The position numbers and the translations under genes are program-made. The notes beneath the pieces are model-generated. The model worked only from the letters and a program-made list of their open reading frames with translations, made no database searches and was not told the origin of the DNA. A DNA stretch of 51,574 bases from an uncultured Desulfobulbaceae bacterium (GTDB taxonomy: Bacteria; Desulfobacterota; Desulfobulbia; Desulfobulbales; Desulfocapsaceae). The stretch spans positions 1 through 51,574 of the forward strand of contig CAISPV010000102.1 of assembly GCA_903887485.1 (NCBI GenBank). Reading direction: 5' to 3'. Positions 272 through 21,028 of this stretch are shown one piece after another (the stretch's first letter is position 1; each line of letters begins with the position of its first letter).

Positions 272-1084
272 TTATTTGTCATTCTTCTCGTCAGTCAGTC
301 CCTTCACGAGCATGGCTCCAGCCAGACCAAGCAGGCCAAGATCCCTGGCCTTGCGCATCGCTGGTTTGACCATCGATGCCATCATTGCCCGGCGTTTAAC
401 ATTGCCCATATCGGCAAGCTTAGGGGTTTCATCCTGAAAGAGAAGAGCGATATCCTTTTTCTTGCCGTAGTAGCGGGAATTCGGGCCAATGCTGCCACCC
501 TTGGGCTCCAGTCCTTTGGCTCCTTTTACCACATATTTGGCAACATCTGAATTCGGATCATCAAGGTCGCCAAAGATACGGGCATTGGTGATACAGGTCT
601 GAACACAGGCAGGAACAAGTCCGGCCTCAACGCGTGGCATGCAGTAGGTGCATTTGTCAGCCTTGCCGTCGGATGAAACATCATCGGTCAGGGCAGGGTT
701 GACGTAACGGGCACCGTAGGGACAGGCGTCTCTACAGGCTCCACAGCCAAGACAGCGGCTCTTGTCAATCTGAACAGTCCCATTAAAGGGATCTTTCCAG
801 GTTGCGGCCACTGATTTGATGGTGGTCTTACCTGTCTTTGCATCTTTAAAGGTCACATCTACCTTGTCGGCAGGGCATGCATCCACGCAGGGTGGTTTTG
901 CACAGTGGTTACAGAGACCGGGATAGTAGGTAGAGGCAAGCTCTTTTTCTACTTTGCTCGGTCCGAGGCGGCGGACCCAGTTCCGGCCAAATTCAACCGG
1001 GACCTCCCACTCCGCCTTACAGGCTATGGCGCAGGCGTGACAGCCTACACAGCGTTCTAGATCAATGATCATTCCATATTGCAT
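272..1084 (-). CDS. 4Fe-4S ferredoxin-type electron-transfer subunit of a molybdopterin oxidoreductase (PsrB/PhsB/DmsB-like)
   Basis: This is the electron-transfer subunit that carries electrons to or from the adjacent molybdoenzyme. Sixteen cysteines form four cluster motifs: C12/15/18/22, C58/61/66/70, C111/114/117/121 and C145/148/160/164, the arrangement of the DmsB/PsrB/NrfC family. There is no signal peptide, so it would travel to the periplasm bound to the Tat-exported catalytic subunit. After about residue 225 comes an unusual tail with a short hydrophobic stretch (LGLLGLAGAMLV) that might be a membrane contact. The gene follows the catalytic gene by 36 bp and ends at a terminator. 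No NrfD/PsrC-type quinol subunit is present, so the partner that links it to the membrane is unknown. The physiological substrate cannot be read from the sequence. Confidence 0.9.
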   Translation of the reverse strand: MQYGMIIDLERCVGCHACAIACKAEWEVPVEFGRNWVRRLGPSKVEKELASTYYPGLCNHCAKPPCVDACPADKVDVTFKDAKTGKTTIKSVAATWKDPFNGTVQIDKSRCLGCGACRDACPYGARYVNPALTDDVSSDGKADKCTYCMPRVEAGLVPACVQTCITNARIFGDLDDPNSDVAKYVVKGAKGLEPKGGSIGPNSRYYGKKKDIALLFQDETPKLADMGNVKRRAMMASMVKPAMRKARDLGLLGLAGAMLVKGLTDEKNDK

Positions 1085-4474: not shown

Positions 4475-5125
4475 TTACAGATCTGCCTTGCAGTGCATAC
4501 ATTTCTGGGCCTGGGCCTTGATGAGCTCGGCACAGTGCGGACACTCTTTTTTAAAGTGGGCCTTGAGGATTTCACTGATAATCATACCGCACTCCTGGGT
4601 CAGAGATGTGTCCCTAAAGGTGTGATTCCTGATGGGATCAATACAGGAAAGATCATTGAGCTGCCTCAGGCAGGCAACGGCCTTCTGTCTGTTGACAAGT
4701 CGTGCCGATTCATCAAGGATCAAGGTCATAATCGGCTCCAGATTGTGACCTTCCACGCAGGTGTCAAGGGCAATCACTGCCTCCTGTTCCTTGACGTATC
4801 GTGTGTTTTGCATCTTCACTGCCTCGGTGTCAATGATGCTGCCGGTGAAGGCATATTCACTGGCAACCATCATCACGTTTTGTTCTTTGCTTCCTGGCAG
4901 CTGCATGCAACGATACGAACCCCTGTGGCCATACTGGAGTTCGATGTGCTGCCAGCCATTTTTAAAGACTGGGCATTCATTGTTCAAGCAGATAAACAGG
5001 ACTTCTGAGCCCCAGCCGAGGCCGTCACCAACATGGACGGGGGGAGCTTCACAGCAGGACATTGCGGTCTGACAACGAGGGCAGATATGAACTTCGTCAA
5101 GATAACTGAAATCACGGGTAAACAT
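4475..5125 (-). CDS. Double zinc-ribbon protein of unknown function
   Basis: A 216-aa soluble protein. Residues 15-60 hold a Cys-rich zinc-binding region (CPRC, CC, then C-x-x-x-x-C-P), and the last 22 residues form a second ribbon (CPHC ... CMHC). Between them is a helical segment (about 95-180) of HEAT- or TPR-like appearance. I do not recognise a named family with certainty; similar proteins are annotated as zinc-ribbon hypotheticals. AGGAGA 8 nt before the ATG supports the start. It stands alone, without a functional neighbour. Confidence 0.75.
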   Translation of the reverse strand: MFTRDFSYLDEVHICPRCQTAMSCCEAPPVHVGDGLGWGSEVLFICLNNECPVFKNGWQHIELQYGHRGSYRCMQLPGSKEQNVMMVASEYAFTGSIIDTEAVKMQNTRYVKEQEAVIALDTCVEGHNLEPIMTLILDESARLVNRQKAVACLRQLNDLSCIDPIRNHTFRDTSLTQECGMIISEILKAHFKKECPHCAELIKAQAQKCMHCKADL

Positions 5126-10532: not shown

Positions 10533-11621
10533 TCACTGAATTCCGCTTGGCTTGAATTTGAGACCAACTTCAAGACGTTGTTTTTGCAAGGCTGCTGGCG
10601 GCGCAGGTAGAGGATTCGCGGCCTCCAGGGTCTTGAGCACAAACTGATCAAAAAGCTTATCCCCTGATTCCTGCTCAAAGGAGTGGCTGACAATCTGTCC
10701 GTCACTGGCAATCGTGATGCTGACCACTGCCTGCAGATTGGGCTCCCATGTCTTGATATCGGGTGGCCGCCAGTATTGTTGGATGTGGCCCATAATGGTT
10801 GCATAATACTGTTGTTCCAGGACACCCATGCTTTTGGCATTGCCGGTACCGGATTGTGAAGACGCTGCATGCGATGTGCTCGAACTGGTTGCTGTCCGAA
10901 GCTGATCGCGCAGGGCATCCTTGGCATCTGCCGCCGCCATTCTGGCCTCGAGCTCAGCACGTCTGGCTTCTTCTCTTGCTGCGGCCACTTGCCGTTGCTT
11001 TTTTATGGTTTCTTGAGCCGTGTTTTCTTTTTTTACTTCTTCCTGGAGCTGTTTAGCGATGTTTTTTAATTCGTCTTTACGGATTTTTGCATCCTCGGCA
11101 CGGGGGGCAGGGATTTCTTTGACCTCTTTTTTCAGCTTTTGTTTTAACGGCTTGATGGAGATCGCCTCGGCTGGTGCCGGGGGCGCTACCGGTTCAGGCA
11201 CGACTGTTGGCTCTGGAACGGGAACGGGTTTTTCTATGGGAGGAGGAATTTTTTTTGCAACTTCCGGTTTAATTATTTCAGCAGGTTTTGGTGGTACAAT
11301 CTCCTCCTTAACCTCTTCTTTTACTTCTTCCTTTACCTCTGCTTTTACTTCTTGCTTAATTGGCTGTTTTGTCGCTTTTATTGCTGTCGGGGCCGCCGGG
11401 GCCGCAGGCCCATTTTGGGCCGCAGGTTCAGCAGCACTCATCAGATCAATGGTGGTGATTTCCGGCAGTATGGGACGTTGATTCAGTAATTTTGGCAGAA
11501 ATATGGCGGACAACAGGATAAGAAGGTGGAGGCCAACCGCCAGATTGATTGGGAGCTTCCATTCGCCGGGCGGGGTATGTGGGGATATATGTTTCTGCAA
11601 CACGTTACTACTTTTCTTCAA
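10533..11621 (-). CDS. tolA: TolA/TonB-like energy-transducing protein
   Basis: A 362-aa inner-membrane protein with one N-terminal transmembrane helix (about 24-46), then a long Lys/Glu/Pro-rich region (70-190), a charged coiled coil (195-250), and a C-terminal TonB/TolA domain (about 270-360, VVSITIASDGQIVSHSF ... LKTLEAANPLPAP). It transmits proton-motive force from TolQR across the periplasm. The predicted start is TTG at 11621, overlapping the end of tolR by 14 bp; an in-frame GTG at residue 7 is an alternative. The operon position favours TolA over TonB. Confidence 0.85.
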   Translation of the reverse strand: MKKSSNVLQKHISPHTPPGEWKLPINLAVGLHLLILLSAIFLPKLLNQRPILPEITTIDLMSAAEPAAQNGPAAPAAPTAIKATKQPIKQEVKAEVKEEVKEEVKEEIVPPKPAEIIKPEVAKKIPPPIEKPVPVPEPTVVPEPVAPPAPAEAISIKPLKQKLKKEVKEIPAPRAEDAKIRKDELKNIAKQLQEEVKKENTAQETIKKQRQVAAAREEARRAELEARMAAADAKDALRDQLRTATSSSTSHAASSQSGTGNAKSMGVLEQQYYATIMGHIQQYWRPPDIKTWEPNLQAVVSITIASDGQIVSHSFEQESGDKLFDQFVLKTLEAANPLPAPPAALQKQRLEVGLKFKPSGIQ

Positions 11622-12033
11622 TTGGTTTGGTCATCATTCCCAGCTTGGCAAATCCTGCTGCTTTAATGTTGGCCATGGTTACTGCAACTACTTTATAGGC
11701 AACATTTTCGTCAGCTGAGAGGAAGATGGGTTCCTCTTTGCCTTTTTCATTCATTATCTTTTTCAGTTGCTCCAACAAGACCGCTTGGGTGTATTCGATC
11801 TTGCCAAGATAAATCTTTCCGTCTTTTTTAATAGTTACAACTAATGGATCTTCTTTCTGCCGCAGTGAATTTGCTGTGGTTGCCGGCAAGTCCACATCAA
11901 GTCCCTGGGTCATCATCGGGGCGGTCACCATGAAGATGATGAGCAACACCAACATAACATCCACCAGGGGCGTTACGTTGATATCAGCAACCAATCCCCT
12001 TGCTCCATTTCCCCTGCTTGATCCCATTCCCAT
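11608..12033 (-). CDS. tolR: TolR, ExbD/TolR-family stator protein
   Basis: A 141-aa protein with an N-terminal transmembrane helix containing the family's proton-path Asp (INVTPLVDVMLVLLIIF) and a periplasmic domain (DLPATTA, then VTIKKDGKIYL and ADENVAYKVV). It forms the TolQR motor with the upstream tolQ. It is 35 bp downstream of tolQ and overlaps tolA. Confidence 0.93.
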   Translation of the reverse strand: MGMGSSRGNGARGLVADINVTPLVDVMLVLLIIFMVTAPMMTQGLDVDLPATTANSLRQKEDPLVVTIKKDGKIYLGKIEYTQAVLLEQLKKIMNEKGKEEPIFLSADENVAYKVVAVTMANIKAAGFAKLGMMTKPIEEK

Positions 12034-12068: not shown

Positions 12069-12770
12069 TTATGTGCGGCTTATCATGTCGCGTTCAATAA
12101 GGTTGAGAAAATCGGTGGAGAAATTCTGCATCTCGCCGTCAATATAGGTAACTTTATTGGCAAAATAATTATAAAAGATAACTGCCGGGATGGCAACGGC
12201 AAGGCCTGCGGCTGTTGCTATCAGGGCCTCGGAGATACCAGGGGCGACAACGGCCAGTGATGCGGAACCTCGTGCGCCGATTTCGTGAAATGAGGCCATG
12301 ATCCCCCAGACCGTACCAAACAGGCCGATAAATGGGGTCGCGCTGCCGGTGGTAGCCAGGAAGGGAAGATATTTTCCCATTGCCGTAATCTCCTGCGATT
12401 CAGCCTTGCGGATGGCCCGTTTCAGATTATCCAGGGTTGCCATCTGCATCTCCAGGGTTTCCGGTTGCTGGCCTTCATCTTTCCGGCTGCGAATTTTGTT
12501 GATCTTCTGGAGTTCGGTAAAGCCTGCTGAAAAGATGGCGGCCTCGGGGCTGTATTCATAGTCTTGGGCAGAGTCGTAGGCCTGGCTGAGTTTGCTCGAA
12601 GACCAGAACGCTTCTATAAAGTCCTGGGTATCGTTAGAGACTTTTTTAAACAGTCGCACCTTAATAAAAACAATCGACCAGGATATCAGTGAAAAAAGAA
12701 GAAGAACAAGCATGACCAGTTGTCCAACCGGCCCAGCGTGTAAAATCATGTTAGCGATAGAGAGCTGCAC
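12069..12770 (-). CDS. tolQ: TolQ, MotA/TolQ/ExbB proton-channel protein
   Basis: A 233-aa inner-membrane protein with a first transmembrane helix at about 17-37 and the conserved channel region near the C-terminus (LPFLATTGSATPFIGLFGTVWGIM, then GISEALIATAAGLAVAIPAV). It starts with GTG at 12770, with AAGGAA about 8 nt upstream. It is the first gene of the tol operon. The 12771-12895 stretch upstream must hold its promoter, but no convincing -35/-10 pair was found. Confidence 0.92.
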   Translation of the reverse strand: MQLSIANMILHAGPVGQLVMLVLLLFSLISWSIVFIKVRLFKKVSNDTQDFIEAFWSSSKLSQAYDSAQDYEYSPEAAIFSAGFTELQKINKIRSRKDEGQQPETLEMQMATLDNLKRAIRKAESQEITAMGKYLPFLATTGSATPFIGLFGTVWGIMASFHEIGARGSASLAVVAPGISEALIATAAGLAVAIPAVIFYNYFANKVTYIDGEMQNFSTDFLNLIERDMISRT

Positions 12771-12956: not shown

Positions 12957-13187
12957 TCAACTCCCAGCTTGCTGGTATAATTCTTCCCGCCACGCCTCCA
13001 ACTGATTTTGATAGTCATTAACTGAAGAAATCATTCCGCACCCCGTGCAGACAGTCTTGGCGTTATGTCAGCATCCCTGCAGGTGCACTTTTTTCTGACC
13101 GCAGTAGAGGCAGAGGAAGGTCGGCTCTGTATCCTTTGAATCTGTTTTCTTGAGAGCAGATGAGGTGGGAGAGGCTGAGTCAATCAT
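12957..13187 (-). CDS. Candidate small selenoprotein, CxxC...CU...CxxC (in-frame UGA at 13070-13068)
   Basis: The frame starts with ATG at 13187, overlapping the FabZ-like gene's stop as ATGA, and runs 76 codons to TGA at 12959-12957 if the internal TGA is read as selenocysteine. The protein has a polar N-terminus, CLYC at residues 26-29, then QGC-Sec-HN (C39, U40), CTGC (47-50) and a helical acidic tail. The symmetric CxxC-CU-CxxC arrangement suggests a redox or metal-binding ribbon. A SECIS-like hairpin follows the UGA: CTGCAC (13050-13045), loop GGG, GTGCGG (13041-13036), with the loop 23 nt downstream. Alternatives are a 39-aa peptide or a nonsense-mutated Cys gene. No known family is recognised. 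Confidence 0.6.
13036..13070 (-). promoter_or_regulatory. Candidate bacterial SECIS element
   Basis: After the UGA (13070-13068) come 17 nt, a 6-bp stem CTGCAC/GTGCGG (one G-U) and a 3-nt loop GGG. Loop distance, stem length and a G at the first loop position meet the published bacterial SECIS pattern (loop 16-37 nt after UGA, G among the first two loop bases). Confidence 0.5.
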
Positions 13188-13630
13188 GGCTGTAGGGAAG
13201 ATGTCATGGCACAGGAAAAATCAACCTGAACGGCAATCTTTTCTTTGACGCGCAGGATTCCTTTCAGGAACCAGGCACCGGCAATTTTTTCTCTCACATT
13301 TACCTGCATCTGGATGATGCTGCCCGGTCCCACAGGACGTTTGAAGCGGGCTCCGCCAATGCGGGCGAGGACAGGAATACCGTGTTGTGTTTTCTGTTCA
13401 TCCTGTAACATTCTGGCAATCAGCAGGGCGCCGGTCTGAAACAGGGCCTCGCAGAGGATGACTCCCGGCAGGATCGGATGCTCAGGATAATGCCCCTTGA
13501 AGATGTCCAGGTCTTCAGGGATGGTTTTTTCCGTAACCATGGTCCCTGCCTCATAGCTGATAATCCTGTCAATCCAGAGGAAGGGCGGCCGATGCGGGAT
13601 CAGGGCCGTAATGAGCGGGTCAATAGTCAT
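13184..13630 (-). CDS. FabZ-like 3-hydroxyacyl-ACP dehydratase
   Basis: A 148-aa hot-dog-fold dehydratase. The N-terminus IPHRPPFLWIDRI matches the FabZ entry motif, and GHYPEHPILPGVILCEALFQTGALL holds the active-site His and Glu of the family. It would dehydrate 3-hydroxyacyl-ACP made by the adjacent FabG. It lies 6 bp after fabG and shares an ATGA overlap with the UGA-containing ORF. It belongs to a dedicated synthase cluster rather than to housekeeping fatty-acid genes, judging from its CrtI-type neighbours. Confidence 0.85.
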   Translation of the reverse strand: MTIDPLITALIPHRPPFLWIDRIISYEAGTMVTEKTIPEDLDIFKGHYPEHPILPGVILCEALFQTGALLIARMLQDEQKTQHGIPVLARIGGARFKRPVGPGSIIQMQVNVREKIAGAWFLKGILRVKEKIAVQVDFSCAMTSSLQP

Positions 13631-13636
13631 GGCGGC

Positions 13637-14377
13637 TTATAAGCCTCCGTTAACTTCCAGCACCGCGCCGGTAATGTAGGAGGCCTGCCGGCCGGCAAGA
13701 AAGAGAACCGCGTCCGCTACTTCTTCCGGAGTGCCAAAACGGCGCATGGGCACCAGATTCTTGTAGGCAGCCACTTGCTCGGCGCTCAGGTCGTCAAGGA
13801 GATCGGTGGCGATAAATCCTGGGGAGACACAGTTGACGGTGATCTTTTTGCGGGCGGTTTCCTTGGCCAGACTCTTGGTCATGCCGATTTGTCCAGCTTT
13901 GGAAGCCGCATAGTTGGCTTGACCGGCAAAGCCGAGATGAGCAACGGGGGAGGTGATATTGATGATCCGGCCATATTTCTGCTTCATCATCAGGAGTACC
14001 GCCTGCTTGGACATATTAAAGGTGCCGGTGAGATTGACATCAATGACCTGTTGCCAGTCCTTGTTGTCCATGAGGGCCAGAAGGCCATCGCGGCGGATCC
14101 CGGCATTATTGACCAGGATATCAATGGTGTCAAAATCCTCTTCCACTTGCCGGAAGAAATCCTCGACCTGCTTGCTGTCGGAGACATCGCATTGGCGCAG
14201 TTGTAGCCTGTTGCCAAACTGGGCGCATTCCTGGGTAAAGGCCTTGGCCGCCTCGCTATTGCTGCCATAAATCCCGATGACAGACGCGCCAGCTTTGAGA
14301 AAGGCCAGGGTGATGGCCCGGCCCAAGCCGCGACTCGCCCCGGTGACAATAACTTTTTGATCAATAAAGGTGGTCAT
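13637..14377 (-). CDS. FabG-like 3-oxoacyl-ACP reductase (SDR)
   Basis: A 246-aa classical short-chain dehydrogenase: TGASRGLG at 12-19, NNAG at 90-93, catalytic Ser143 (NITSP) and Y156-x3-K160 (YAASK), ending in the family's VNGGL. It reduces 3-oxoacyl-ACP with NADPH. It sits 9 bp after the second FAD oxidoreductase gene and 6 bp before the dehydratase, consistent with a single operon. Confidence 0.88.
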   Translation of the reverse strand: MTTFIDQKVIVTGASRGLGRAITLAFLKAGASVIGIYGSNSEAAKAFTQECAQFGNRLQLRQCDVSDSKQVEDFFRQVEEDFDTIDILVNNAGIRRDGLLALMDNKDWQQVIDVNLTGTFNMSKQAVLLMMKQKYGRIINITSPVAHLGFAGQANYAASKAGQIGMTKSLAKETARKKITVNCVSPGFIATDLLDDLSAEQVAAYKNLVPMRRFGTPEEVADAVLFLAGRQASYITGAVLEVNGGL

Positions 14378-14386
14378 ATTCTCTGA

Positions 14387-15793
14387 TTATACACTGCGGA
14401 TATAGCCGTCAACATCATTGGCGACGATCACCCCGTAATTGATTGCCCCAAGCCAGCCGGACATGATGATCCCCACCGAACCGACATGAAAAAGCCCGTG
14501 AACCTCTTTGAAGAGGGAACGGGAGACAGCCAGGCCCTCAAACTTGGTGCCAAAGGAGGTGCCGCGGCTGTGCAGGGTGTAGCGGTTAAAGGTCTTCGGC
14601 GTTGCCGCCTCCAGCCAGTCAATCTTTTCATTTACTCCGGGAAAGTAACGATTCAGATCCACCAGGGTCCGCTCGATGAGGGCTTGCTTCTCGGTTTCAT
14701 AGGCGGCTGGGGTGAGGCTGTTCCAGTCCTCAAACCGGCTGTTCATGGAGGCGACAATGGCATAGCGGTCGTGGCCTGGTCGTGTCTTCGGGTAATAGAC
14801 CGAGAAGGTCTTGGAACGAGTGTGCATGTCGAGCAGTTCGGAAGAGTCGAAAACCGGTGCCGTAGAGGTGAAAAGAAGATCGCCTTTATCTTCAATGGCG
14901 GCATCTTTTTTCAGTCCGATATAGACCTGGCAACTGGAGTTGTTGACCCGAACCGCATCGGCTTTTGCCAGGAAGTCCTGAGAAAAGACATCGCGCCCAG
15001 TCAGATCATAGATGGTATTGGTGATGCCGCTGTTGGAGACTACAGCCGGGGCGGTGATCACTTTGCCGTTCACCTCAACACCGCGCACCTTGCCTTTTTC
15101 CACAATAATTCTGTCAACCTTGGCATTGGTGCAGATCATCACCCCGTTGCGTTCAAGGTCTTCGGTCATTAACTCGATGAGTTTGTCCGTGCCGCCTTCA
15201 AAGGTGAAAACCCCCTTGTTCATGAAGTTGGAAAAGACAATGCCGTAGGTGATGGCTGGATCGTCAAGGGTGGAGCCGTTGGCATAGGTGATCGGTTCCA
15301 TGAGCAGGCGATGGACATCGCTGCGGCCGGGGAAGAATTCGTCAAACAGTTCCCGAGTGGTCATGGTCTGGTCATCGTAAAAATTCATCCCCGCCACCGT
15401 GGAGAAAAAATGGTCGATAGTTGTCTGGGGGATCTTGAATTTTTTCTTCAGCAGGGCGGTAAAATCAACCCGGTCAAAGGTGGTTTGCAGAGAAAACTGG
15501 GGGTTGTCAAAGACGATATTCTTAAGCTGGACAATAGATTGTGTGATCTCCTTGGTCCAGTATTTTTTACAGGTCTTGACCATGCCATAGGGAAAACCAT
15601 GCAGGGAGACGTCGAAGATATGGCCTTTGCGCTTGAACCAGGTGGCAAGACCTCCAAGCTGGTGGTGGAACTCAAGGAGCAGCACCTTGTGGCCGCAATA
15701 GGAGAGCCGTTTGGCCGTGGTCAGGCCACCCAGGCCGGAGCCGATAACAATTACATCGTAGCGGTCGGCTGCTTTGTCTAAAGAAAAGGGCAT
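14387..15793 (-). CDS. CrtI/CrtISO-like FAD-dependent oxidoreductase
   Basis: A 468-aa flavoprotein with the dinucleotide motif [17 protein letters not shown] and [16 protein letters not shown] (residues about 14-55), an internal [10 protein letters not shown] segment and a C-terminal FAD-closing motif ([23 protein letters not shown]). The layout is that of phytoene desaturases, carotene isomerases and retinol saturases. With ACP-linked synthase genes around it, the likely substrate is an acyl or polyene chain and the reaction a desaturation or isomerisation. It is 33 bp after a paralogue with which it shares architecture but modest identity by eye. Confidence 0.8.
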
Positions 15794-15825: not shown

Positions 15826-17211
15826 TTAGAGTCGGGACAGAATATGTTGGTTGACCATGGAGACACCGCTGAGCATGGAGCCGACAATACCTAAAAAACC
15901 CTGGTCGGTGCCGGCAAGAAAGAGGTTGTTATAGCCTATGTCACCATTCTTGATCTTGTCGGGACAACCATAAATAGCGCCTTCTTTTTTGGCGGTAAAG
16001 CGTTCTATGGTAAGGGGGGTAAAGGTATCCTCATATACAATATGTTGTTTGAAATTACCAATGATTTTCTCAATCGCCGCCTTTGATTGGGTGGCCGTGT
16101 CGCTCTTGGCCGCAAGATAGGCGGGCCGGTCTTCGGCAAGGGCCTTCCAGCCGGCATAATCGGCAAGATGGGTGGCACGAACCTCAAGGTATGTTTGGGC
16201 ATCAAGCCCGTGGAAGTTTCCCGGAAAGCAGATAACGCCGCTGCTGTAATCGACCCGTTCTTCCGGCCGCTGGTAGAGAAATTTCTTGTTGCTGTTATAG
16301 AAAATAATAGTTTTGTCTTTGGGTAGAACATTCTGACAATCAGCAGGTAGCCGGAAGATGGATTCGACAAAACCAAGTCGGGTTTGTTGCTTCTGTACAG
16401 GCGGCACAGCGAGAGCTGCCAGGGTTTCTTCATAGCCAATGGTGGAGAGCAGGGCGTCGCATTCAATCACCTCGCCGTCTGCCAGCTCCACCCCCGTCAC
16501 CTTCCTGTCCCGATGGATGATTCTGGCCACAGGGGTCTGCAAGCGAATCTTGCCGCCGAATCCCTGATACTGCTTGAGCAGGATATCGAGAAAATCCTTG
16601 ATGCTGCCCTCAGGCCGGAACATCCCTTCGAGGAAAATCGCCCGGAACATGATGACAAATTGGCCCAAATCCATGTCGTTTTCGACGCTAGATCCGTAGT
16701 ACATCAGCGGACAGAGCAGCATGTCCACTAAAAGTGGGGCGTCGAGGGTCGCGGCTAGAAAGGTTCGGGCCGAACGGAAGGGCGCTGCCTTGAACGGGTC
16801 ATATTCCTTGATGGCCTGCAGCAGTCTGGCAAATCCGGGCGCGCTGCGGGGGAATGTGGTCACAATTTCTTGGTGCAGCATCTCGAAATCGTTGGAGAAG
16901 GTCAGTCTCTCCTGATTGACAAAGCAGATCTCGCTTGCGATCTGTTCATGAAACGTGAAGTCCTTGCGTCGCAGTTTCAGCTGGCGGAGCAGCCGATTGA
17001 GCGGCGCGTTTTTATCGTGGGGCGTGGCAAAATTGGTGATGGCATGGAGACCGGTCTCAATCAGAGAGTTGTTACGGTAATAATAGGAGTTGAGGCCACC
17101 AATGCGTGAATGTTTTTCCAAGATAAGGACTCCTGGATTGAAACGGGCGAAACGAATTGCGGCGGCCAGTCCCGAGAGACCGCCGCCGATTATCAACAGA
17201 GGAATATGCAC
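15826..17211 (-). CDS. CrtI-like FAD-dependent oxidoreductase (second copy)
   Basis: A 461-aa flavoprotein: LLIIGGGLSGLAAAIRFAR and ILEKHSRIGGLNSYYYR at the N-terminus, LAGTDQGFLGIVGSMLSG at the C-terminus. It starts with GTG at 17211, 13 bp after the ACP stop. It belongs to the same superfamily as the next gene; two desaturase-like proteins in tandem next to an ACP suggest successive or heteromeric steps on an ACP-bound chain. A carotenoid substrate is less likely, as no crtB or crtE homologue is visible. Confidence 0.8.
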   Translation of the reverse strand: MHIPLLIIGGGLSGLAAAIRFARFNPGVLILEKHSRIGGLNSYYYRNNSLIETGLHAITNFATPHDKNAPLNRLLRQLKLRRKDFTFHEQIASEICFVNQERLTFSNDFEMLHQEIVTTFPRSAPGFARLLQAIKEYDPFKAAPFRSARTFLAATLDAPLLVDMLLCPLMYYGSSVENDMDLGQFVIMFRAIFLEGMFRPEGSIKDFLDILLKQYQGFGGKIRLQTPVARIIHRDRKVTGVELADGEVIECDALLSTIGYEETLAALAVPPVQKQQTRLGFVESIFRLPADCQNVLPKDKTIIFYNSNKKFLYQRPEERVDYSSGVICFPGNFHGLDAQTYLEVRATHLADYAGWKALAEDRPAYLAAKSDTATQSKAAIEKIIGNFKQHIVYEDTFTPLTIERFTAKKEGAIYGCPDKIKNGDIGYNNLFLAGTDQGFLGIVGSMLSGVSMVNQHILSRL

Positions 17212-17224
17212 TTTTTGATATGTG

Positions 17225-17476
17225 TCAGGCGTTTTTGAGCATGGGTTCCAGATAGTTGACGCAGCTGTCCAGAGAGGCGAGCTGCGGATAATCCTCTTCC
17301 GGGATCTGGAGTTTATGGCGTTTGCGGAGCTCCATCACGATATCAAGAAAATCCATGGAATCAAGGTCAAGCTGGTCACGCAGTGGCTGGTCGGATTGCA
17401 GTGTGGCAAAATCGGCATCTTCATCTATGTCTTTGATAATCTCAAGAATGAGATCCTTAATATCATCACGTGTCAT
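17225..17476 (-). CDS. Acyl carrier protein
   Basis: An 83-aa acidic four-helix carrier with the phosphopantetheine attachment motif LDLDSMDFLD (Ser40). GGAG 6 nt before the ATG supports the start. It would carry the growing chain for the KAS, FabG, FabZ and FAD enzymes encoded around it. The 17477-17671 stretch upstream is markedly A/T-rich, has no gene, and probably holds a promoter; it also carries a small CACT/AGTG hairpin. Confidence 0.9.
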   Translation of the reverse strand: MTRDDIKDLILEIIKDIDEDADFATLQSDQPLRDQLDLDSMDFLDIVMELRKRHKLQIPEEDYPQLASLDSCVNYLEPMLKNA

Positions 17477-17671: not shown

Positions 17672-19516
17672 TTATGGTTTAGCGTGCATAAGGGTTGGTA
17701 TGAGCAGCAATAAGAGGTTGCCCTTGGCGGTGGTCAAGCTCACGTCGTCAATGAAAAAAGTGGTGGCAAGTGACGCGTTCTCCGTTGCTGTAAAACGCAG
17801 ACGCACGGTTTGTCCTTTGTAGGCGGCGACATTAACCGGCAGGCTTTTACGCACCCATTGATTAGGATTCGCTGCATCCAGATTTGAAAGAGTGGTCACT
17901 GTGGCCAGTTTGGTGGATCCGGTGGCGTCATAGAGTTCAACGGTCAAGGTGTCATTTTTGACACTGGTGGTTGTCTCACTTGTTGTAATGAAAGACCAGA
18001 ATTCGACTGTAGCACTATTGGCATTTGCTGGAATCGTCAGGCTCTGTTCAACAGCCTCGGTCGCCACCAAACCATAACCGCACAGATAAGCGCTATAGCT
18101 ATCCAAATGTGCATTAAATGTAGAGACGGGCATTACGCCTTGCGTTGAATATTGAGTCCAGGGTGTGGCTGCGCCCATCTCAAAACCGGGATCCTGGAGG
18201 AGATTGTTGCTGGGGAGCAAATCAGCAAGATAAACCCCTTGCCTATTGGGGAATTTGGAATCCAGGGTGATCTGGCTGGATGAAAAGACAGAAAAACGCC
18301 CCGCGTCATCATTGGATAATGACAGCGAATTACTAGACACCGAGCGATCGGCCACCAGGATGGTCTGGTTGTGAACAAGATCGCGAACAAGGGGCTTCAT
18401 CCAGGCAGACGATGTCACCAGATTGGTCGCCTTGCTGGTAAAGGCAACATGCTTGCCGTTGTGGGACAGGGCTGGACGTGTATCAGGGCCACCGCTGTCA
18501 TCATTTCCCAATGCTGTGCCATCTGCGCTGACACTGGCCAGGGCCAGCACTCCGGTTTGCGTGTCCTTGACATAAACCTGGTATTTGCCGTTTCCCCCGC
18601 CAAAAGCAGTATTTCCTGTGTCAAAACCTGTGACAAAAGAGACATAGCGGCCATTCCCCGAAATCCCGGGACTGTGGATGCCACTGATGCTGCCAAGTGG
18701 TGAGACTTGCAACTCGCCGCTGCTTCCTGTGCTGACGCGAGATACGTTATACCCAGCTATGGCTGGATCAACCCACAGATAAATGTCCCAGCCTGTGGCG
18801 CCATCAAATTGGTAAGACCAGAAGGCGATACGCGATCCATCATACGAAATGTCCGGTTCGCGACCAGAATCCAGGGTAACAGTATCAGCTCTTAAACTTA
18901 CCGGGACGATTGCTCCGGTAACAAGATCCTTGCGTACCACCGAACCAGAACCACTTCCGATGTTAGTGGCGTATGTCATAAAGGCCGCATAGTGGCCATT
19001 ACCAGAAATTCTGGCCTCTTTACTCTGTCCATCGCCAGGAGTTCCAGACCCATTGGCGCTGACGAGGCTGGTCCGTTTGGGGCTTGTGCAGCGATCACGC
19101 ACAAAGATGTTTCCACCTACATTATTTGCAGAAGCCAGATTGGTCGAAGCTGATGCGAAGACCACCTTGCACCCATCATTTGATATCGAGGGATAGTCAC
19201 TTGTGCTATTGCCGTAGTCACCAGTATTGCTCATACTGATCAGCTCGGTCGTATGAGATAACCGGTCATGCAGATAGATCTGGTAACCGGGTGCGTTGGG
19301 AGTGACCAGGGTGGATTCACTGGACACATAAACAACAAAGCGTCCGTCCGGGGTGACTTGAGGTCTCGTTCCGTATCCTGTATTGGCACCATCGGTGCTG
19401 CGGGATATAAATTCGTATGTTGTCTCCGCCGCTGTAACCGCATGAACCGCAGCGCCTGAAAACAGAAGAAACGCTACTGTTGGCAAAAGGTGCTTCCAGC
19501 AAGAACTGATTTTCAT
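17672..19516 (-). CDS. Secreted beta-propeller protein with C-terminal carbohydrate-binding-like domain
   Basis: A 614-aa exported protein. The signal peptide ends near AVHA-VTAA (residues 1-30). Residues 35-430 contain repeated blades of the PD40/TolB type (TPDGRFVVYVSS, SNDGCKVVFAS, SGNGHYAAFMT, SYDGSRIAFWS, SGNGRYVSFVT, SHNGKHVAFTS). From about 440 a jelly-roll-like domain begins (LLQDPGFEMG ... FFIDDVSLT), similar to modules that bind sugars. The tail is hydrophobic (NLLLLLIPTL). AGGAG precedes the ATG. It lies on the same strand inside the lipid synthase cluster, between KAS and ACP, but has no evident role in that pathway. Function unknown. Confidence 0.75.
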   Translation of the reverse strand: MKISSCWKHLLPTVAFLLFSGAAVHAVTAAETTYEFISRSTDGANTGYGTRPQVTPDGRFVVYVSSESTLVTPNAPGYQIYLHDRLSHTTELISMSNTGDYGNSTSDYPSISNDGCKVVFASASTNLASANNVGGNIFVRDRCTSPKRTSLVSANGSGTPGDGQSKEARISGNGHYAAFMTYATNIGSGSGSVVRKDLVTGAIVPVSLRADTVTLDSGREPDISYDGSRIAFWSYQFDGATGWDIYLWVDPAIAGYNVSRVSTGSSGELQVSPLGSISGIHSPGISGNGRYVSFVTGFDTGNTAFGGGNGKYQVYVKDTQTGVLALASVSADGTALGNDDSGGPDTRPALSHNGKHVAFTSKATNLVTSSAWMKPLVRDLVHNQTILVADRSVSSNSLSLSNDDAGRFSVFSSSQITLDSKFPNRQGVYLADLLPSNNLLQDPGFEMGAATPWTQYSTQGVMPVSTFNAHLDSYSAYLCGYGLVATEAVEQSLTIPANANSATVEFWSFITTSETTTSVKNDTLTVELYDATGSTKLATVTTLSNLDAANPNQWVRKSLPVNVAAYKGQTVRLRFTATENASLATTFFIDDVSLTTAKGNLLLLLIPTLMHAKP

Positions 19517-19608: not shown

Positions 19609-20850
19609 CTACTTTTCGTATTTTTTGACAATAGTAACGGAGTTGATGCCAACCATGCCAAAAGAGTTATTGAGAATGGTGGACACAGACGAAAGTTGGA
19701 CCGGTTTGTTAATGACCATGTTGGGCAGGGCGCATTCGGGATCAAGCTGGGTGACATTGATGGTGGGATGCACCATATGATCCTCAAAGGCAGGCAGATT
19801 ACCGGCAAGTTCCAGGACGCCGGCGGCCCCCATGGCATGACCGATGATGGATTTTGTGTTATTGATGTAGGTGGATGACGTCTCACCAAAGACCTGGCGG
19901 ATGGCCTTGCACTCTTCAATATCACCCTGCCGGGTGCCAGTGGCGTGGGTGTTAATGATATCGATGTCGGAAGGTTTGAGCCCGGCGCGCTCAAGGGCCT
20001 GCTGCATGCACTCTGCCTGGCGCTTGTCATAGGGGAGCACAAAGTCACGGGCATCGGAGTTGATGCAGTAGCCGATAATCTCTCCATAGATCTTGGCCCC
20101 GCGTTCAAGGGCTTTTTCCAGCCGTTCCAGGACGTAGATGCAGGCCCCTTCTGAAACTACAATCCCGTTTCTCTCTATGTCAAAAGGCCGGCAGGCCATG
20201 CGCGGATCTTTGGCCTCACCGAGTGCGCCCTGGGCCTTGAAGCTGGCAAAGATCCCAAAGGAGCCGGTTGATTCCGAGATACCACCGGCGAGTGCCATAT
20301 CCACTTCGCCCAGGCGGAGCATCTGCACACCTTGAATCAGAGAGGCGTTGCCGGCCGCACAAGCTGCTCCTATGGCGTAATGGGGACCGGTGATCCCCAG
20401 GCTCATGGTGATCTCGCCGGCAGGGTTGTTGAGAACGGTTCGGGGATTATGGTGGTGGGTCCAATACTTTACGTCATAATTGAACTGACTGATATTAAAA
20501 ATTTCATTTTCTGTCTCCACGGTTCCATGCTCGGTGAGGCCTACATAGACACCGATGCGGGATCTCTTGTAAAAATCAATATCGAGCGCCGCATCGGCCA
20601 GGGCCTCGTGGGCACAATAGACACCAAGGCACCCGGCACGGGTCCCCCGTTTATTTTCCTTTTTTTTCCGGTACCGGGTTTCGTCAAAGGTGCAGATCCC
20701 GGCGGGTGCAGGGCCAAAATAGCGGAGGTCGATCTCTTTGATTTTACTGGTTCCGGTCAGCAGTTGCTCGCGAAAATCCTTAAGATTATCAGCGCCCGGC
20801 GCAGCCAGGCCGACCCCTGTTATGACGATTCTTTGTTGATTGTAATCCAT
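19609..20850 (-). CDS. FabF-like beta-ketoacyl-ACP synthase
   Basis: A 413-aa condensing enzyme with the KAS II triad: Cys164 (IGAACAAGNAS), His302 (NTHATGTRQGD) and His338 (IGHAMGAAG). It extends acyl-ACP with malonyl-ACP. The ATG at 20850 is preferred because the family begins at RIVITGVG; a TTG 36 codons upstream would add a non-homologous stretch. No clear Shine-Dalgarno is seen at either. It is the first gene of the cluster, and a divergent gene starts at 21029, so the 20851-21028 gap should contain promoters in both directions. Confidence 0.87.
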   Translation of the reverse strand: MDYNQQRIVITGVGLAAPGADNLKDFREQLLTGTSKIKEIDLRYFGPAPAGICTFDETRYRKKKENKRGTRAGCLGVYCAHEALADAALDIDFYKRSRIGVYVGLTEHGTVETENEIFNISQFNYDVKYWTHHHNPRTVLNNPAGEITMSLGITGPHYAIGAACAAGNASLIQGVQMLRLGEVDMALAGGISESTGSFGIFASFKAQGALGEAKDPRMACRPFDIERNGIVVSEGACIYVLERLEKALERGAKIYGEIIGYCINSDARDFVLPYDKRQAECMQQALERAGLKPSDIDIINTHATGTRQGDIEECKAIRQVFGETSSTYINNTKSIIGHAMGAAGVLELAGNLPAFEDHMVHPTINVTQLDPECALPNMVINKPVQLSSVSTILNNSFGMVGINSVTIVKKYEK

Positions 20851-21028
20851 GATGGTTGATTGACGAATGGAGGTGAGCTTATTATAAATAGGTTGAGTTG
20901 TCGTTGAATAAGCAGGCTGAAACCCTTTATCTTTAGGATATATTGCTTGAGAATTCAAGAAGAATGCAGGATGGTATGGAAAAAGTGCTCCTTGTTGGAG
21001 ATGGAATCTTGGTTTTTGGGAGGGAAAA

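Follow-up and report, generated by a model that had tools for sequence, protein, structure and literature searches.

The window analysed here, a 51,574-nucleotide stretch of DNA from an uncultured Desulfobulbaceae bacterium (contig CAISPV010000102.1), very probably contains a real gene for a tiny selenoprotein in which an in-frame TGA is recoded as selenocysteine (Sec), a reading that comes from comparison of related sequences. The TGA is retained across relatives, a stem-loop just downstream of it covaries and the genome carries the sel set, all of which favours the selenoprotein gene that the original prediction, made from the letters of the window, had put forward. Taken as a whole, the explanation that we prefer is that of a recoded zinc-ribbon selenoprotein with a redox role, whose gene is placed in dsr islands in some lineages and beside a lipid operon in others, and we hold this to be likely with good confidence.

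The gene and its reading frame

The reading frame begins with an ATG at 13187 on the minus strand, which overlaps the stop codon of the fabZ-like gene (13630-13184) in the tetranucleotide ATGA. Codon 40 is an in-frame TGA (13070-13068), after which 36 codons lead to a TGA stop (12959-12957); the two CxxC pairs of the protein lie at residues 26-29 and 47-50. Start, overlap with fabZ, in-frame TGA, 36 further codons, separate stop and CxxC pairs were all found again where they had been reported. The motif proposed for the protein, CxxC-CU-CxxC, needs amendment: both CxxC pairs are there in the window but CU is not a family motif, as the residue before Sec is Arg in 55 of 73 distinct sequences and Cys in only two (a further sequence outside this set, L021, has Cys there too). 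The Cys before Sec in the window protein is thus an oddity in a family that is mostly Arg-Sec. The features of the region are collected in Table 1.

Table 1 Coordinates of the putative selenoprotein gene, its elements and neighbouring genes in the window
Feature	Position	Strand	Basis
Putative selenoprotein gene, 76 residues, predicted Sec at residue 40	12957..13187	(-)	ORF, homologue search, NF041197 match
UGA codon, very probably read as selenocysteine	13068..13070	(-)	One-TGA counts, aligned place in loci read, Cys in L156-L159
SECIS-like stem-loop, 7 bp, GGG loop, within codons of second CxxC	13035..13051	(-)	Covariation, codon bias
fabZ-like dehydratase, FabA-like domain	13184..13630	(-)	Domain scan; same place in 18 loci; ATGA overlap
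fabG-like reductase	13637..14377	(-)	Domain scan; 18-locus order
FAD-dependent oxidoreductase 2, Amino_oxidase domain	14387..15793	(-)	Domain scan; 18-locus order
FAD-dependent oxidoreductase 1, Amino_oxidase domain	15826..17211	(-)	Domain scan
Acyl carrier protein	17225..17476	(-)	ORF; 98% like L106 protein matching PF00550
Beta-ketoacyl synthase, start not refined	19609..20958	(-)	Domain scan; 18-locus order
tolQ-like gene, MotA/TolQ/ExbB family, first downstream	12069..12770	(-)	Domain scan; 18-locus order
tolR-like gene (presumed), second downstream	11608..12033	(-)	ORF; same place in 18 loci

Conservation on both sides of the in-frame TGA

A search of 97 genomes from the same genus, family and order with the read-through protein gave a match at E<=1e-4 in 35, the genome of origin included, and in 34 of these exactly one TGA lies inside the match. 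The exception is G056, which has a degenerate copy (L134) at the junction of fabZ and tolQ; here the TGA is absent and the C-terminus changed, and from its sequence this copy looks like decay. Within the genus, 14 of 17 genomes match, the three that do not being 76%, 55% and 84% complete, whilst in the rest of family f1 only 5 of 43 other genomes match at the same threshold.

Extending the search to 395 genomes of the phylum yielded 58 places in 56 genomes at E<=0.001. One TGA is present in 53 of the 58 (the window's own and a weak match in G191 included) and four relatives have Cys at the Sec place (G472, G131, G344 and G384; loci L156-L159); the place in G021 is a doubtful match within a long frame. 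A TAG or TAA is also covered by the match in 6 of the 53 places and in all six it stands just 5' of the start codon. In the loci that were read, the TGA stands at the aligned place. An alignment of 50 rows (A2) has C26, C29, G38, U40, C47 and C50 invariant, two same-genus rows that break the invariance having been left out of it: in L113 (G016) Tyr replaces the last Cys and in L117 (G003) the first CxxC is absent in frame. Downstream of the TGA, differences summed over all pairs of eight genus members fall 174/145/304 at codon positions 1/2/3, a pattern expected of coding sequence. An outcome that would have told against the original prediction, that homologues all end at residue 39 with nothing conserved after the UGA, did not occur; TGA or Cys is kept at the place of residue 40, with conservation on both sides.

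A SECIS-like stem-loop

A stem of 6 bp with a GGG loop had been proposed 23 nt after the UGA. This is present (CUGCAC-GGG-GUGCGG, the loop beginning 23 nt past the UGA) and an extra U-A pair lengthens it to 7 bp, giving a stem-loop of SECIS type shortly past the UGA, its small apical loop containing G. To assess it we used 52 of 56 aligned rows, taking 42 nt from the TGA onwards, and compared the pairing of stem columns 20-26 with 30-36 against 500 shuffles, which ignore the relatedness of the sequences. The 7-bp stem is paired in 91.2% of cells (83.3% when shuffled), 27 cells are changed on both sides (shuffled mean 8.3) and the covariation score is 0.267 (0.146 when shuffled); for none of these three measures did any of the 500 shuffles score as high. 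Versions of the stem slid along the alignment are lower on all three, with only 30.5-64.3% of cells paired. Two other measures on the same 52 sequences are not outstanding, namely the number of pairs with a double change (3; 204/500 shuffles as high) and the number of further pair types (13; 40/500). RNAalifold independently recovers the outer five pairs.

Codon usage under the stem points the same way. At U+8, 30 of 31 Thr codons are ACG, a codon that makes up 10% of the 358 used for Thr in 17 ORFs of the window. At U+7, 54 of 56 Cys codons are TGC, compared with 52% in window ORFs, the background in both comparisons being the window ORFs alone. This bias suggests that the codons are constrained beyond what the protein demands. 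In the wider set of 73 sequences, ACG accounts for 31 of 32 Thr codons at U+8 and TGC for 65 of 73 codons at U+7. We also considered pair 26-30, kept in 45 of these 73, as a separate proof, using a test that excluded L190 (of the other branch) and copies lacking the TGA. With all 73 sequences 8/20000 shuffles were as high, but with the 48 that have a fourfold-degenerate codon there the figure was 1502/20000, which is not significant, and the pair was therefore given no weight.

Given its composition, the window stem has an unremarkable folding energy (z -0.10); what supports the stem-loop is the comparative evidence. A search of the genome of origin with the Rfam SECIS_1 model gave no match, and none of the controls matched either.

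Selenium machinery

According to the original prediction, absence of sel genes from the genome would have spoken against a selenoprotein. The genome of origin encodes all four of the components by which a bacterial selenoprotein would be judged: SelA (541 bits), SelB (389 bits, with the wing domain found), SelD (377.5 bits) and one tRNA-Sec above the cut-off (68.3 bits). That tRNA was one of 11 matches, the rest of which we took to be ordinary tRNAs. SelB proved unsuitable for a test of co-occurrence, as 391 of the 395 genomes match at E<=1e-20 (353 above the cut-off) and it does not discriminate. The SelD match (L191; contig 3 of the same genome, 75574-76515) holds one in-frame TGA, and SelD may thus itself be a selenoprotein.

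That the TGA of codon 40 is an ordinary stop, with a 39-residue peptide being made and the following 36 codons either decayed or a separate frame, would accord with the standard code, the degenerate G056 relative and the two damaged same-genus copies, but in-frame conservation on both sides, the Cys replacements, the covarying stem and the sel machinery make it so improbable that we set it aside.

Relationship to predicted selenoproteins

The original prediction had allowed for a new family, and this did not hold up: all 50 members of A2 match the NCBIfam model NF041197 ('dual CXXC motif small (seleno)protein') at E<=0.001 (best 2.7e-14), as do all 27 of a smaller member set, and this family number covers the predicted selenoproteins DW and OS_HP3, the latter reportedly going back to Zhang and Gladyshev in 2007. 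The family has therefore already been predicted by others and, judged by its sequence, the window gene is of the NF041197/DW kind. It shares with NF041197 the layout of two CxxC pairs with Sec or Cys between them and matches the profile at E 1.5e-6 in the 50-member scan, scoring 28.2 bits against a curated cut-off of 40. When six TGA relatives were scanned singly, five exceeded 40 bits (40.5-42.2) and one scored 34.6; as five of these six pass the cut-off and the window copy does not, we regard it as related to NF041197 but divergent, and not as a formal member. The highest scores, 84 and 69 bits, belong to Cys forms from family f54 with a C-terminal CDR[IV] ending, and the model thus seems to be centred on that branch; a Cys form from f50 reaches 30.5 bits. 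The window copy shows that members can score below the cut-off, and such genes may go unnoticed or be recorded as ORFs of 39 residues.

In the parts of a 2026 review that were covered (PMC13188914), NF041197 is filed twice, as OS_HP3 with the motif RxU and as hypothetical protein DW with GxU, and a deep-Sep paper (PMC12013277), likewise covered in part, lists DW in two Desulfosarcina genomes as a hypothetical protein without conserved domain. The G-x-U motif is common to DW and the window branch, a likeness of family number and motif, whilst OS_HP3 bears the same number with RxU, a comparison by description rather than by sequence. On its GxU motif, the window branch fits best with DW. DW is represented by record SMF39960.1 and OS_HP3 by WP_425411677.1. 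One genome, G221, carries both branches (L190 and L186), one form having Arg-Sec-Arg and a CDRL ending and the other G-R-U.

The nearest other family, one of several similar small zinc ribbons, is more remote. Eight of the 50 members match TIGR03655 (Lar family restriction alleviation protein) at E<=0.001, the scores shown being 14-23 bits, far below its cut-off of 39.6. Lar proteins are not known to contain Sec.

Position at the end of a lipid operon

The gene had been placed at the end of a fatty-acid-synthase-like operon, and the gene content of the window confirms this (Table 1; the name tolR-like is presumed from position). The order ketoacyl synthase (KS), acyl carrier protein (ACP), two FAD enzymes, fabG, fabZ, selenoprotein gene, tolQ, tolR recurs in 17/17 f1 loci and in G084, a genome of family f4 in the same taxonomic order as the window. 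The 17 loci are those fetched with flanks, the short contigs of G007 and G011 being left out and the G056 locus being counted though its gene is degenerate. The proposed link to lipid synthesis therefore stands within the window's taxonomic order, in these 18 loci, but not elsewhere: other lineages have other contexts and only a weaker case is provided by G164 (family f63, another order), where genes resembling FabG (46%) and KS (31%) are found upstream. Stable as it is, the fab-tol linkage hardly extends beyond one order.

The passages of PMC2649909 that were covered describe unusual polyunsaturated hydrocarbons in Desulfotalea psychrophila and fatty acid synthase clusters with phytoene-dehydrogenase-like FAD enzymes, two of which are neighbours (DP2405 and DP2406). 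Compared by this description rather than by sequence, these clusters pair fatty acid synthase genes with FAD enzymes as the window does, but they also hold radical-SAM genes, of which there are none among the window genes scanned. Selenoproteins are not mentioned in the passages covered.

Linkage to dsr islands and other contexts

Contexts differ by lineage: some have the gene in an island of dsr (sulfite reductase) genes, some 5' of selD and some next to a zinc-ribbon gene, and at many other loci its neighbours are unrelated. The search for dsr genes covered 54 of the 56 phylum-scan genomes (G021 and G191 left out), some with short contigs. In 12 genomes from five other families dsrA/B lie within 6 kb of the selenoprotein gene (seven genomes in f91, two in f43 and one each in f62, f69 and f105). 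A HEAT/TPR gene and a TPR gene adjoin the selenoprotein gene in 12/12 of these loci, the 5' end of the TPR gene facing it, and in 9/12 dsrK, O and P are on its opposite side. G396, also of f91, has the same HEAT/TPR and TPR neighbours as far as the contig end, bringing the total to 13 genomes. In the two f43 genomes, the first dsrA/B gene follows immediately downstream of the selenoprotein gene and has the same orientation. The names dsrB, DsrO, DsrP and DsrK come from NCBIfam matches in one genome (G449) and those of the HEAT/TPR and TPR genes and of one neighbour with a CxxCxxCC domain from Pfam; DsrA, D, J and M are names that we presume from sequence and gene order. The genome of origin has dsrABD and a pair of HEAT/TPR and TPR homologues on contigs 101 and 6, respectively, apart from the selenoprotein gene.

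Two weaker matches were not counted as dsr islands. One, near 272-1084 (-) in the window and ~12.3 kb downstream of the gene, is DsrO-like at 34% identity and is probably another ferredoxin-type protein; the second is a weak DsrO-like match in G413. A literature search for a dsr-selenoprotein link found none named in titles and opening abstract text, and one for Desulfocapsa with selenoprotein returned nothing on the topic.

In two genomes of family f52 the selenoprotein frame (L150 and L154) continues into an additional domain of ~100 residues, and selD follows just downstream of the fused gene. This domain occurs in 5/395 genomes, all of them f52, and in the three others it is found elsewhere in the genome; the L150 copy has no Pfam or NCBIfam match. 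With such a narrow distribution and no family match, we did not use the fusion as a clue to function.

How far the place behind fabZ speaks to function is evenly balanced, for we give an even chance to its being inherited synteny only, in which case the gene would sit between the lipid operon and tolQ as a passenger unconnected with lipid synthesis. In favour of this, other lineages carry the gene elsewhere and the fab-tol order is found in one family and, within the same order, in a single genome from a second family. The ATGA overlap with fabZ in the window, the constancy of the junction across the f1 loci and G084 and, in another order, the KS- and FabG-like genes that precede it in G164 argue instead for a tie to the operon.

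Predicted fold and the proposed role of selenocysteine

AlphaFold2, run on A2, returned a model with mean pLDDT 80.1 and pTM 0.58, block means being 88-94 over residues 21-70. In the model, residues 34-37 and 44-47 form a hairpin in which a short helical turn (40-42) starts at Sec, and past the hairpin come a strand (53-55) and a helix (56-75). From this predicted hairpin fold and the four Cys we infer a zinc ribbon in which the hairpin tip carries Sec. Foldseek gave no match at E<=0.001, a viral library included; its best, weak neighbours are ribosome and RNA polymerase structures and a small zinc-finger protein. A sequence search of the PDB gave a single weak match (E 0.064).

These fold neighbours, a weak sequence likeness to Lar-type and Elf1-type ribbons and the fact that an enzyme domain was searched for and none found would all suit a protein in which Sec is mainly a metal or metalloid ligand, or the redox switch of a zinc site in a regulatory or nucleic-acid-linked ribbon, and not a catalytic selenol. 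We think this possible, if on the unlikely side, since the keeping of TGA over Cys in 53/58 phylum places fits redox chemistry better and there is no pointer to DNA or RNA binding. The alternatives discussed here are not mutually exclusive and their odds need not add to one.

On the redox reading that we favour, ribosomes finishing fabZ would probably restart at the overlapping ATG, and SelB with Sec-tRNA would bind the stem-loop after a 16-nt spacer so that the UGA is decoded as Sec, a step suggested by the machinery and the covarying stem. In the resulting protein of 76 residues, probably cytoplasmic, a single metal ion would probably be bound by the two CxxC knuckles. Sec, with which the short helical turn of the model begins, would present an exposed, redox-active selenol at the hairpin tip between them. 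Anaerobic sulfur metabolism might use such a protein as a small carrier or switch that works by thiol/selenol redox chemistry; its gene stands within dsr islands in some families and, in Desulfocapsa-like bacteria, closes an anaerobic lipid operon beside tol genes.

The dsr linkage, as a matter of gene order, suggests a connection to sulfur respiration. A more specific proposal would be that of a so far unrecognised Sec-dependent redox partner of dissimilatory sulfite reduction, dealing with a persulfide or sulfur-chain Dsr-pathway intermediate (on DsrC, for example), that later moved to the anaerobic polyunsaturated-lipid operon of Desulfocapsa-like bacteria and there, by the same selenol chemistry, serves or protects the FAD enzymes; this is speculative and we rate its chances as low. 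The linkage to dsr islands in five families, together with the fixed place after fabZ, nevertheless offers a first functional lead for the predicted family. Should the Dsr link prove functional, it would connect selenium with a main respiratory pathway of anoxic sediments.

Other features of the window

The original prediction also described a perfect hairpin just after the gene. It exists in the window, as a perfect inverted repeat with 14-bp arms (12929-12896) between the gene and tolQ, but is absent from 16 other loci, where the longest perfect arm in the same 120 nt is 10 bp. Found in the window only among these 17 loci and with no T-run after it, the hairpin was rejected as a conserved terminator.

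Between the ketoacyl synthase and acyl carrier protein genes lies an ORF of 614 aa with a PD40 beta-propeller match (17672-19516 (-)). The corresponding gap in 17 other operon loci is short, about 120-410 bp, so that this ORF looks like an insertion specific to the window.

A 216-aa protein with a weak zinc-ribbon match is encoded at 4475-5125 (-). Its homologues in four genomes of other families (G066, G073, G078 and G083) stop 0.3-0.6 kb short of the selenoprotein gene, on the upstream side, and in 6/17 f1 loci, the window included, they lie ~8-9 kb from it.
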